Of a stretch of 64,000 bases of DNA, positions 2,562 through 37,783 are shown piece by piece. The notes under the pieces were generated by a model. That model searched no databases, had not been told where the DNA came from, and was given only the letters and a program-made list of their open reading frames with translations. Numbering within the stretch: the stretch's first letter is position 1; every line of letters begins with the position of its first letter. Made by a program: the position numbers and the translations under genes. Source of the DNA: Formivibrio citricus (GTDB lineage: Bacteria; Pseudomonadota; Gammaproteobacteria; Burkholderiales; Chitinibacteraceae); NCBI RefSeq assembly GCF_900115065.1, contig NZ_FOVE01000001.1, forward strand, positions 1-64,000, in the 5' to 3' direction.

Positions 2562-2705
2562 AGAACCTGTTTGCGATCTTGCTGCGAAGCCGTGATCGGG
2601 GCTCATGCGCTGCTCAAAATCCTCATGTACTACTTGTACATTCCGGTTTTTGCGCTGCTCTTTACCCCGCTGACGGCCTCTCGCGACAGATCGTGAACGG
2701 GTTCT
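2562..2705. repeat. Palindromic miniature element, copy 1 (class I ends)
   Basis: This 144-base element is one long imperfect palindrome. Its ends AGAACCTGTTTGCGATCT (2562-2579) and AGATCGTGAACGGGTTCT (2688-2705) are inverted repeats matching at 15 of 18 positions. The inner arms (GCGAAGCCGTGATCGGGG against the complement of CCCCGCTGACGGCCTCTCGC) also pair, and the exact centre is ATGTAC-TACTT-GTACAT at 2625-2641. A second copy with the same ends is at 37312-37454. It lies between two divergent genes and contains no credible gene. Confidence 0.85.
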
Positions 2706-4587: not shown

Positions 4588-5160
4588 GTGCCCTTGAACA
4601 TACCTATTGTCCTGACCTGGTTCCGCGTGGCGTTGATCCCGGTCTTTACCGTGCTGTTTTACCTGCCGGAAACAACTTTGTCCCTGCAGCACCAGAACGA
4701 GATCGGCGCGCTGATCTTTGCCTTGGGCGGCATCACCGACTGGCTCGATGGCTACCTTGCGCGGCGCTGGAACCAGACTTCGAGCTTCGGCGCGTTCCTC
4801 GACCCGGTCGCGGACAAGCTGCTGGTCGCGGCGGCGCTGATCCTGCTGGTGGAACTGAACCGTGCGCCGGCCTGGCTGGCAGTCATCATCATGGGGCGCG
4901 AGATCACGATTTCTGCATTGCGCGAGTGGATGGCGCAACTGGGCAAGGCCAAGAGCGTGGCCGTGGCCTATATCGGCAAATTGAAAACCGCCGCCCAGAT
5001 GGTCGCGATTTTCCTGCTCCTCTGGCAGGGGCCGCTGTTGTTCATGGCGGGCAAGCAGACGCAGTGGTTGGGAACGGTGGCGCTGTATGTGGCCGGTATT
5101 CTGACGATCGTTTCGATGTTCTATTACCTGCGGGTCGCCGCTCACCAATTCCGCGAGTGA
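4588..5160 (+). CDS. pgsA: CDP-diacylglycerol-glycerol-3-phosphate 3-phosphatidyltransferase
   Basis: PgsA makes phosphatidylglycerol phosphate, the committed step to phosphatidylglycerol and cardiolipin, at the inner membrane. The CDP-alcohol phosphotransferase signature is complete: D54-G55-x2-A58-R59-x8-G-x3-D-x3-D in DGYLARRW through FLDPVAD. There are several transmembrane segments, and the 190-residue length is normal. The start is GTG at 4588, one base after the uvrC stop and behind GAGAGG. The stop codon falls inside the first bases of a palindromic repeat (5158-5281), so transcription must leave through that element. Confidence 0.95.
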   Translation: MPLNIPIVLTWFRVALIPVFTVLFYLPETTLSLQHQNEIGALIFALGGITDWLDGYLARRWNQTSSFGAFLDPVADKLLVAAALILLVELNRAPAWLAVIIMGREITISALREWMAQLGKAKSVAVAYIGKLKTAAQMVAIFLLLWQGPLLFMAGKQTQWLGTVALYVAGILTIVSMFYYLRVAAHQFRE

Positions 5161-5281
5161 CAGGCGGCTGCGCCTGCGCATTTTGCAGTCACGCGGTGCT
5201 CGGAATCCTCATGTACTCCATGTACATTCCGGTTCCTGTGCTCCGGGTTCCCGCAAACTGCTTTGGCTCGCTCGCCTGTCA
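5158..5281. repeat. Palindromic miniature element, copy 2 (class III ends)
   Basis: This element is bounded by TGACAGGCG (5158-5166) and CGCCTGTCA (5273-5281), an exact 9-bp inverted repeat, with the core hairpin ATGTAC-TCCAT-GTACAT at 5211-5227 at its centre. The flanks of the core (CGGAATCCTC on the left, TCCGGTTCCTG on the right) are the same as in the other copies although the outer arms differ. The first 84 bases recur at 5364-5447 with one mismatch. Confidence 0.83.
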
Positions 5282-5363
5282 GTGACTTTGTCGATTTCGC
5301 CTTGCCGTGCTGTCTGCACTGTCTGCGGCTTGTCTTCGCGTCACTGACAATTTCCAAATGGAA

Positions 5364-5447
5364 TGACAGGCGGCTGCGCCTGCGCATTTTGCAGTCACGC
5401 GGTGCTCGGAATCCTCATGTACGCCATGTACATTCCGGTTCCTGTGC
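5364..5447. repeat. Palindromic miniature element, copy 3, right arm lost
   Basis: This is an 84-base direct repeat of 5158-5241 (83 of 84 identical; T5217 becomes G5423, in the hairpin loop). It keeps the left arm and the core hairpin, but the right arm is replaced by a different dispersed repeat, CGTCATACCGGCGCAGGCCGG, starting near 5455. The rest of 5282-5574 contains no gene. A further low-complexity repeat resembling GGTGCGCATGGCGCCCCCTACC is at 5533-5554. Confidence 0.75.
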
Positions 5448-5574
5448 ATTTTTGTCGTCATACCGGCGCAGGCCGGTATCCAGTTGCAGGGTGCGCATGT
5501 GTTGCGCACGCGGGCATGACGTTTGACCGGGATGGTGCGCATGGCGCCCCCTACCTTGCTTGCGGATAACGACC

Positions 5575-11084: not shown

Positions 11085-11205
11085 AGAGCCTGTTTCAGTA
11101 GGCAAGCGAGCCAAAGCAGGTGGCAGGAGGACGGTGCGCAGGAACCGGAATGTACATGGGAGTACATGAGGATTTCGAGCGCCGCTGCCTAATGAAATAG
11201 GTTCT
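11085..11205. repeat. Palindromic miniature element, copy 4 (class II ends)
   Basis: The ends AGAGCCTGTTTCAGTAGGCA (11085-11104) and TGCCTAATGAAATAGGTTCT (11186-11205) form an inverted repeat with 17 of 20 matching. In reverse orientation the core reads ATGTAC-TCCCAT-GTACAT with the shared CCTC/TCCGGTTCCTG flanks. Trinucleotides TTA adjoin both ends (11083-11085 and 11205-11207), as expected of a 3-bp target duplication. The right TTA is also the stop codon of znuA read on the minus strand. Confidence 0.82.
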
Positions 11206-12098
11206 TACTGGTTGCCCTGCATCCCTGTCACCAACATCCCCACGTTATGTCGATACATCTTGAGATAGGTGTTGGCTGCTCCGTCGCGCGACAGTGCGTC
11301 CGAATACAGCCGCCCGCCGGCGCGGGTGCCGGTGTCGCGGGCGATCTGTTCGACGAGTTTCGGGTTGCTGATGTTTTCCATGAACACGGCGCGGATGCCG
11401 GTTTTCTTCATTTGCTGGATCAGTCTGGCAACATCGCGGGCGCTGGCTTCGGCTTCGGTGGAAACACCCTGCGGTGCCAGCAGTTTGATGCCGAGGCGCT
11501 GGCCTAGATAGCCGAAAGCATCGTGCGAGGTCAGTACCACGCGTTTGCTCTGGGGGATGGTGGCAACCTGCTGGTTGGCCCATTCGAGCAACTGGTCGAG
11601 TTCGCGGTTGTAGTTTGCGGCGCGGGTCTGGTAGTAGGCGCGGCCTTCCGGGTCGGCAGCGCTGAGTGCGTCGCGGATGTTCTGCACCATCTGCTTGACG
11701 CGAACCGGGTCTTGCCAGACGTGCGGGTCGTGACCGTGGCGATGCCCATGCCCGTGATTGGCTTCGCGCGCCGCAATGCCCTGCGAGACAGTGACGATCT
11801 GGCCGCGGTATTTGCTGGCCTGTTGCAGGCGTTTTTGCCAACCCTCGAAGCCCAGTCCGTTGACGAACAGCAGTCTGGTCCGGGTGAGCCTCTGGATGTC
11901 AGCCGGCGTGGGCTGGTAGACGTGAGCATCCTGATCGGGGCCGACCAGCGTGGTGAGCTCGATGCGCTCCCCGCCGACGTTCTGCACGATGTCGCCGAGG
12001 ATGCTGAAACTGGCAGCAACCGGCAGCGGCTTGGCTTGCACGAGTGCGCTTGCCAGTGCGGCAAAAACAGAAAAGCACAAGAGTGTCTTCTTCATCAT
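11205..12098 (-). CDS. znuA: Zinc ABC transporter, periplasmic binding protein
   Basis: This cluster A-I solute-binding protein of 297 residues captures Zn2+ in the periplasm for ZnuBC. A signal peptide (MMKKTLLCFSVFAALASALV, then a cleavage near QAKP) is followed by the first metal-ligand region, DQDAHVYQPTPAD. A His-rich loop NHGHGHRHGHDPHVW near residue 120 is characteristic of zinc rather than manganese carriers, and SHDAFGYL carries a further His ligand. The start is ATG 12098 behind AGGAA. It is the last gene of znuCBA, 19 bases after znuB, and ends inside a palindromic element. A manganese role is the alternative and less likely given the His loop. Confidence 0.93.
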   Translation of the reverse strand: MMKKTLLCFSVFAALASALVQAKPLPVAASFSILGDIVQNVGGERIELTTLVGPDQDAHVYQPTPADIQRLTRTRLLFVNGLGFEGWQKRLQQASKYRGQIVTVSQGIAAREANHGHGHRHGHDPHVWQDPVRVKQMVQNIRDALSAADPEGRAYYQTRAANYNRELDQLLEWANQQVATIPQSKRVVLTSHDAFGYLGQRLGIKLLAPQGVSTEAEASARDVARLIQQMKKTGIRAVFMENISNPKLVEQIARDTGTRAGGRLYSDALSRDGAANTYLKMYRHNVGMLVTGMQGNQ

Positions 12099-35873: not shown

Positions 35874-37312
35874 TGAGCCACCACATTCAAGAAGCCAGCG
35901 CGCTGCTGCTGGCCCCGTTCGGGCTGGACGATGCACGTCTGGACCAGGTATTCGCCGGCATGTTCAACCACAACCTCGACTATGCCGATCTCTACTTCCA
36001 GTATTCGCGCAGCGAGGCATGGAGCCTCGACGAAGGCATCGTCAAATCCGGCAGCTTCAACATCGACCAGGGCGTCGGCGTGCGCGCGATCAGCGGGGAG
36101 AAGACCGCCTTTGCCTATTCCGACGAGATCAGCATGGATGCGCTGCTGCAGGCCGCTACCGCAACGCGGGCGATTGGCCGTCAGGGCGGGCAGGGCGTGG
36201 CGCCGCTGTTGCGCCAGATTCAGGGCCATGATCTCTATCGCCCTTGCGATCCGCTGGCGAGTCTCGGCGAGTCGGCCAAGGTGGCATTGCTGGAGAAAAT
36301 CGAAAAAATCGCCCGCGGGCTTGATTCGCGTGTGACGCAGGTCATGGCAAGCCTCGCGAGCGAATACGAAGTCATCTATGTGGCGCGGCACGATGGCCGC
36401 CGCGCGGCCGACATTCGCCCGCTGGCGCGTCTGTCGATCCAGGTGATTGTCGAGGAAAACGGCAAGCGCGAGCAGGGCAGTGCCGGCGGCGGCGGGCGCT
36501 TCGACTATGCCTTCTTCAATGAATCGGTACTGCACGATTACGCCAAAAAGGCCGTCGATCAGGCCGTGCTCAACCTCAATGCACGCCCTGCACCGGCCGG
36601 CGAGATGACCGTCGTGCTCGGCAACGGTTGGCCCGGCATTCTGTTGCACGAAGCCATCGGCCACGGCTTGGAAGGCGACTTCAACCGCAAGGGCGCATCG
36701 GCGTTTTCCGGCATGATCGGCGAGCGCATCGGCGCGCCCGGCGTGAACGTGGTCGATGACGGCACGCTGCCGGACCGGCGCGGCTCAATCAACATCGACG
36801 ACGAAGGCGAACCCGGCCAGCGCACCGTGCTGATCGAAAACGGCATCCTCAAGGGCTACCTGCAGGACAGCCTCAACGCCCGCCTCATGGGCATGGCCCC
36901 GACCGGAAACGGCCGCCGCGAAAGCTACGCCCACCTGCCGCTGCCGCGCATGACCAATACCCTGATGCTAGCGGGTGACAAGTCGCCTGAAGAAATCATC
37001 GCCTCGATCGACCGGGGCCTCTATGCCGTGAACTTCGGCGGCGGGCAGGTTGACATCACCAGCGGAAAATTCGTGTTCTCGGCCGCCGAAGCGTGGTGGG
37101 TGGAGGGCGGCAAGCTGCAATATCCGGTCAAGGGCGCCACGCTGATCGGCAACGGCCCGGACGTGCTCAAGCAGGTCGGCATGATCGGCAACGATCTGGC
37201 GCTCGACCCCGGTGTCGGCACCTGCGGCAAGGAAGGCCAGAGCGTGCCGGTCGGCGTCGGCCAGCCGACGTTGCGGATTGATGGTGGGTTGACAGTGGGT
37301 GGAACGGCCTAA
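35873..37312 (+). CDS. tldD: Metalloprotease TldD
   Basis: TldD (479 residues) pairs with TldE/PmbA to form a zinc protease that degrades unfolded peptides, and matures microcin B17 in E. coli. The zinc site [11 protein letters not shown] (HExxxH, about residue 260) is intact, as are [19 protein letters not shown] and [17 protein letters not shown]. The ATG overlaps the amidase stop. The pmbA partner is not in the window, as is usual. The TAA stop lies at the left edge of a palindromic element, possibly using its TAA target. Confidence 0.95.
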
Positions 37313-37454
37313 AAACCTGTTCACGCTCTTGCTGCGAAGCCGTGATCGGGGTTCATGTGCTGCTCGGAATCCTCATTTATCCGCATAAACTCCGGTTCCT
37401 GCGCTGCGCTTCACCCCGCTGACGGCTTCTCGCGACAGATCGTGAACAGGTTCT
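37312..37454. repeat. Palindromic miniature element, copy 5 (class I ends)
   Basis: The ends are AAAACCTGTTCACGCTCT (37312-37329) and AGATCGTGAACAGGTTCT (37437-37454). The inner arms match copy 1 at 2562-2705 closely. The core is ATTTAT-CCGC-ATAAAC (37375-37390): two base pairs differ from the ATGTAC/GTACAT stem of all other copies by changes on both sides. The next bases, TTAGAACCTGTCCCGATCT (37454-37472), begin the IS remnant. Confidence 0.85.
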
Positions 37455-37783
37455 TAGAACCTGTCCCGATCTCTTGAACAGGAAGCCAGAAAAGCCAAGT
37501 GGATGAACTGCAAGCTGGTGTTCAACTTGCGTGTGCAGTTTTTCCACAATCGCCAGTTCTTATCCTGCCAGGCGAAACTGCGCTCGACGATCCAGCGCTG
37601 GGGCATAACCTTGAAGCAGTCCAACTCACTGCGCTTGGCAATCCGCACACTGACCTGTTCGCCCAAGATGCCCTGAACGCCCTGTGCAAATGGCTTGCCC
37701 GTATAACCACCGTTAGCCAGCAAGCTGACAACCCGGCGGCCGGCAAGAAAAACACCTCTGCCGAGTAAATCAAAATCCCGCAA
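37454..37783 (-). pseudogene. IS5-family transposase, C-terminal remnant
   Basis: The 109-codon frame covers only the last part of an IS5-type DDE transposase. ANGGYTGKPFAQ corresponds to the (A)DxGY block, but with Asn in place of the second catalytic Asp. KRSELDCFKVMPQRWIVERSFAWQDKNWRL is the K-RxE-F-V-P-RWVVERTFAW block with the catalytic Glu. The N-terminal half with the first Asp is absent. With one catalytic Asp missing and the other changed, it cannot be active. Its outer end (TTAGAACCTGTCCCGATCT at 37454-37472) nearly matches the ends of the palindromic elements. Confidence 0.82.

Follow-up and report, generated by a model that had tools for sequence, protein, structure and literature searches.

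The first 64,000 nucleotides of Formivibrio citricus contig NZ_FOVE01000001.1 (the window) hold five short palindromes with a common centre, which raises the question of what these repeats are and why their centre keeps its fold. The first-pass annotation had proposed a family of five such copies, and direct reading of the window finds each of them in place. A covariance model (R1), based on 58 diverse elements that include E. coli and own-genome sequences, confirms them as real: they score 61-118 bits against less than 15 elsewhere in the window, where the best non-copy places reach 14.8 and 13.3 bits.

Two classes of copy are present. Class A has GAACCTGTTCACGATC ends, while class B is recognized by GGCGGCTGCGCC..GGCTCGCTCGCC inside and has copy-specific ends. 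Three classes of outer arm had been proposed, but the arms of the 5158, 5364 and 11085 copies belong to one class. The copy upstream of uvrC (2563..2704, minus strand; 117.3 bits over 2562-2703) has class A ends (GAACCTGTT..) and the core ATGTAC/GTACAT; the strand listed for it is the inferred folded strand, M. A class B copy (5161..5278, minus strand; 117.6 bits over 5148-5289) has the pgsA stop codon TGA (5158-5160) as part of its outer arm, and its conserved core, recognized from sequence and covariation, runs from GGAATCCTC through ATGTAC-loop-GTACAT to TCCGGTTCCTG (5202..5238, minus strand). A truncated tandem copy of this element, left arm and core only, lies 206 bp downstream (5364..5447, minus strand; 84 bp; 63.2 bits over 5374-5476), with about 81 bp identical save one base. 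A different palindromic repeat, GTCGTCATACCGGCGCAGGCCGGTATCCAG, occupies 5453-5482, directly after the truncated copy ends at 5447. The copy at 11085..11205 (plus strand; 61.1 bits over 11087-11231) stands in the opposite orientation, with class B ends (AGAGCCTGTTTCA.. and AGAACCTATTTCA..) and a left arm shortened by deletion. The fifth copy (37313..37453, minus strand; 117.3 bits over 37312-37452) is flanked by TAA and TTA and has class A ends around a TTTAT/ATAAA core. One of its outer arms (37313..37329, plus strand) has two mismatches to GAACCTGTTCACGATC; the other (37437..37453, minus strand) is GAACCTGTTCACGATCT.

The window samples a much larger population. In BLAST searches of the 3.07-Mb genome, the 37312 copy recovers about 40 members of its class and a full class B copy about 35 of the 11085 class, giving a family of about 75 copies of 118-144 bp each, without coding capacity. 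The core 11-mer TCCGGTTCCTG is found 35 times, its reversed control 4 times. Two other loci in this genome share a repeat, translated as 'FADCIRSH..GADAIR', that probably belongs to a further dispersed palindromic family.

The family extends well beyond Formivibrio, through much of the Proteobacteria. An exact-pattern scan places the core on at least 114 contigs; among the matches listed are Xanthomonas, Dyella, Rhodanobacter, Halomonas, Aeromonas, Herbaspirillum, Pseudogulbenkiania and Thiobacillus, as well as some MAG contigs labelled Troglogloeales. BLAST with a Xanthomonas element reached a Klebsiella copy, which then led to E. coli, and the structured core is also found in Yersinia. In E. 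coli, 5375 of 5426 complete genomes carry the element, at a median of 5 places per genome, and 22,645 of 22,656 places are chromosomal; copies in K-12 lie at pyrH-frr, glrK-qseG and pheM-pheS. By E-values that are rough, R1 matches 91 of 274 genomes of the class (E <= 1e-3) and 35 of 249 of the phylum (E <= 1e-8). Plasmids rarely match (10 records and 1 record of 72,556 with the two queries tried). One Yersinia plasmid has a copy between the operon genes xylA and xylB, and a Yersinia phage genome carries one copy. In X. phaseoli the majority core is GGAATCGGCAT, not GGAATCCTCAT, the partner side is also changed in some copies, and the GGAATCGGCAT copies form a sub-family with another internal loop. 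Some genomes hold copies with TATACATAGCG.. ends and a longer palindrome that do not clearly fit the TNA target rule described below, possibly reflecting another helper type.

Selection acts on the structure of the element. Compensated change in the core had been taken as a sign of such selection, with a covariance model suggested as the check; run on 58 diverse copies (alignment A1), this check finds strong covariation in both the core stem and the outer arms. The consensus fold has 40 pairs in 7 helices, and pairing-preserving changes on both sides occur in 35 of them. Double-sided change cells number 522 against 154 +/- 14 in shuffles, and the covariation score is 0.575, compared with 0.195 when shuffled and at most 0.157 with partners slid. 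Pairing cells make up 89% against 68% shuffled, a percentage that is inflated because A1 members were selected partly for folding on M; matched changes are less affected. None of 500 shuffles reaches the observed structure values. Five of the six core-stem pairs show matched changes (pairing 97%), as do all 15 outer-arm pairs (pairing 79%). The interior is a rod of helices with the conserved internal loops GTAGCGAGCG/GAGCGCAGTAG, GCGCAGGAA/TTCCGAGC and CCGGAG/TGAGG.

The fifth copy is less exceptional than it had seemed. Its ATTTAT/ATAAAC core (37366..37401, minus strand) is present as described, but in this genome one sub-class typically carries it. The pair reported as lost is indeed A.C on the strand read, which makes it G.U on the other strand: on M, 37 of the 58 copies in A1 have G.U at this pair and 20 have A-U.

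Matched arms could also arise at the level of DNA. Class B outer arms fit their own partner better than swapped ones (0 of 20,000 permutations, from a curated list of the own genome), and template switching of the kind known as quasipalindrome correction, which keeps arms complementary without selection, accounts for each copy having its own matched arms. Such correction would, however, erase the conserved mismatched internal loops, and it leaves the A.C/G.T strand bias described below unexplained; we regard it as very unlikely. Intrinsic termination was also considered and set aside, as 0 of 30 class A matches have 7 or more T in the 12 bases outside either end.

The element is a non-autonomous transposable element (a MITE), which bears out the earlier description of a structured mobile element. 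Identical TNA trinucleotides flank 36 elements, whereas any other trinucleotide class accounts for at most 3. A pair of empty and filled sites lies between hemE and nfi in E. coli: K-12 reads CGC TAA GGAG, and O121 RM8352 reads CGC TAA, the 144-bp element, TAA GGAG. The target is the hemE stop codon, so hemE and nfi both remain intact, and 293 of 5426 E. coli genomes have the filled site. Insertion into pre-existing palindromes, suggested by the copy-specific arms of class B, was rejected, since the empty hemE-nfi site contains no palindrome. Among relatives, the uvrC and pgsA loci retrieved contain no orthologous filled site, at a divergence too high for exact empty-site borders.

These target duplications bear directly on whether the copies are functional small-RNA genes, as the Rfam family sX9 is described, that multiplied with mobility incidental. 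Covariation of a strong RNA type is what such genes would show, and sX9 is reported to be expressed and to be among the most numerous bacterial small-RNA annotations (PMC9029176), with higher levels under copper in X. campestris (PMC10924375). Such an origin is nevertheless hard to reconcile with the exact TNA duplications, with the empty site and with copy numbers that reach dozens per genome at differing places. Furthermore, only half of the palindrome falls within sX9, and no promoter can be recognized by eye in the core. Multiplied small-RNA genes are therefore a decidedly unlikely origin.

The ends of class A point to a particular helper. All 17 bases of GAACCTGTTCACGATCT match both ends of an 849-bp IS5-family insertion sequence (IS) on an X. 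campestris plasmid, itself flanked by a TAA duplication, and an Aromatoleum plasmid carries a related IS with GAACCTGTTCAAAGTCT at its ends and TTA as its duplication. The IS1031 subgroup is known for TNA targets and 3-bp repeats, with ends GAACCTGTCTAGTATCT in ISLrh (PMC12016507). Because the ends are identical and the target rule is the same, an IS1031-type IS is strongly supported as the helper for class A, with its transposase probably mobilizing the element in trans. The helper applies to class A only, since the IS ends seen do not closely resemble those of the Xanthomonas and E. coli elements. Derivation of the element from an IS by deletion was rejected, as it has no internal similarity to the 849-bp IS.

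A remnant of such an IS abuts the fifth window copy. An IS5-family transposase fragment (DDE_Tnp_1; 37454..37783, minus strand), not a full IS, meets the copy at the IS end TTA|GAACCTGTCCCGATCT and is a relative of the probable helper. This rare, IS1031-like fragment has its nearest relatives on Aromatoleum, Xanthomonas and Pandoraea plasmids. In 40 relatives, neither a match to the fragment (E <= 1e-20) nor a corresponding full IS was found. The Formivibrio citricus assembly yielded no intact helper transposase, and X. phaseoli no autonomous IS with Xanthomonas ends, its paired ends lying about 125 bp apart.

Hairpin-recognizing transposases of the RAYT (Y1 tyrosine) type, which would make these REP/REPIN-type repeats, have a nearly negligible probability as the movers. 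The copies are intergenic chromosomal palindromes, Y1_Tnp genes are present in the genome, and a GTAG-like motif lies beside the arms, all of which fits such an origin. Yet no element adjoins the five Y1_Tnp loci examined in the own genome, the sole match being due to chance, and Y1 elements have neither duplicated TNA targets nor inverted ends, so the target duplications contradict this origin. The Y1_Tnp gene with the chance match has another repeat as its flanks, and a RAYT origin was rejected. One Y1/RAYT gene (G000:C23:1313-1639) has direct repeats of a GGGGTCAGACTCGATTGATTTT-like sequence on both sides, a different repeat family.

Mismatches within the arms suggest which strand folds. 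When elements are picked solely by their core pattern and their two arms are aligned with each other, plus-strand mismatches in other genomes are A.C 171 times and G.T 73 times over all counted positions; with the conserved motifs left out, a hand-summed count gives 149 against 38, although these totals are not independent events because copies share ancestry. A.C on the plus strand is G.U on M, and M is therefore the strand on which pairing is preserved. The own genome lacks this wobble bias (54 against 50). By crude ORF calls, which put 87 of 231 elements under a long, probably spurious ORF, flanking genes run with the plus strand in 31 cases and with M in 17, so M cannot simply be equated with the mRNA strand. 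The evidence supports selection acting on M (5'-GTAGCGAG..GGAACCGGAGTGTAC-loop-GTACATGAGGATTCC..GCAGTAG-3'), with either RNA or single-stranded DNA as the folded form. Folding "in DNA or RNA" had been proposed earlier; the wobble asymmetry narrows this to one particular strand and does not separate RNA from DNA.

A folded single strand could serve transposition itself. In that case the transposase or a host factor would recognize M at the replication fork, folded there as single-stranded DNA, and selection would favour mobility rather than an RNA. Any folded single strand would account for the strand bias, and the conserved internal loops stay constant while the ends vary. However, the IS1031-type helper moves without such a core, and no requirement for internal hairpins is known among DDE transposases. 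A role for the core in transposition is rather unlikely on balance, although it is the main rival to a role in the transcript.

The explanation that we consider probable treats the copies as palindromic MITEs, mobilized in trans by IS1031-type elements and carrying a structured M-strand module that may soften their insertions. The outer 16-17 bp are the transposon ends, and insertion is at TNA with a 3-bp duplication, a target that is frequently a TAA or TGA stop codon. IS1031-subgroup IS5-family DDE transposases would move the copies in trans, and lineage-specific ends would follow whichever insertion sequence the host has. The inner ~110 bp form a conserved structured module whose helices are held by matched changes and which does not derive from the single complete helper-type IS examined. 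Least certain, and suggested by analogy with what has been proposed for ERIC, is that the folded M module would act on the transcript, through processing or end protection; harmless residence in 3' ends and between operon genes would result. We prefer this transcript-level role to one in transposition.

A broader reading has a little under an even chance of being right. An ancient structured RNA or single-stranded DNA module may persist as an end-swapping mobile element across Proteobacteria, with the core performing a separate function for the element or the host transcript. The folded core would stay constant and the ends would change to fit the IS1031-type transposase present.

The analysis thus reaches beyond the first-pass annotation to a class-wide family whose element corresponds in one half to Rfam sX9 and whose ends are those of IS1031-type insertion sequences. 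One of the most numerous bacterial "small RNA" annotations is, on this evidence, half of a transposable element, and a corrected full-length model would help genome annotation. The element sits inside the three K-12 operons named above, and the filled and empty sites of E. coli open its effect on host transcripts to direct test in laboratory strains. It also shows clearly how selection can act on the structure of a non-coding element that relies on the enzymes of other elements to move.

Several known systems resemble the family in part. The RSA repeats of E. coli, which Rudd is said to have reported in 1999 as about 152 bp long, may be the E. coli copies, given that size and copy number (median 5 per genome) fit. 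No mechanism or wider family is known for them. ERIC elements duplicate TA on insertion, and their sequence differs from that of the element; the element duplicates 3-bp TNA instead and has a far wider host range. Matches to the ERIC1R and ERIC2 primers occur in 25 and 5 of 276 elements at up to 8 of 22 mismatches, a screen too permissive to indicate kinship. The likeness lies in form, as ERIC/IRU sequences are also intergenic palindromes (~127 bp) folding into one long hairpin, with a reported RNA-level effect on neighbouring expression (PMC2267715). REP/REPIN sequences (PMC2817692, PMC3733652) are likewise dispersed chromosomal palindromes, but they are units of 20-40 bp without inverted ends or target duplication, and the element shows no RAYT linkage.

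The closest parallels are with sX9 and the IS1031 subgroup. The sX9 model (RF02228) matches the right half of the element, scoring 82.7-99.2 bits for Xanthomonas and Dyella copies, 31-38 for window copies, 29-34 for E. coli copies and 29-40 for Enterobacterales copies. Its gathering cut-off of 44 bits is reached by Xanthomonas, Dyella and one gammaproteobacterial copy and missed by the window and E. coli copies; sX9 has also been predicted in Herbaspirillum (PMC6337395). That model describes a single strand of 76 nt with a local fold, limited to one half and annotated on the plus strand, whereas the element is a full palindrome of ~143 nt with transposon ends, and its wobble bias favours the opposite strand, M. 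IS and MITEs of the IS1031 subgroup such as ISLrh (PMC12016507) share the TNA target, the 3-bp duplication and the 17-bp ends, which are identical for class A. Unlike IS of this subgroup, the element has no transposase gene, its interior is unrelated to the single complete IS examined, and that interior is conserved across hosts with different ends. No paper found describes the whole family, in a literature searched largely outside subscription journals, and papers that apparently named the core sequence seem, judging by their titles, to be unrelated primer matches. What is new relative to all of these systems is a unified family in which a constant core is combined with interchangeable ends and copy-specific matched arms.
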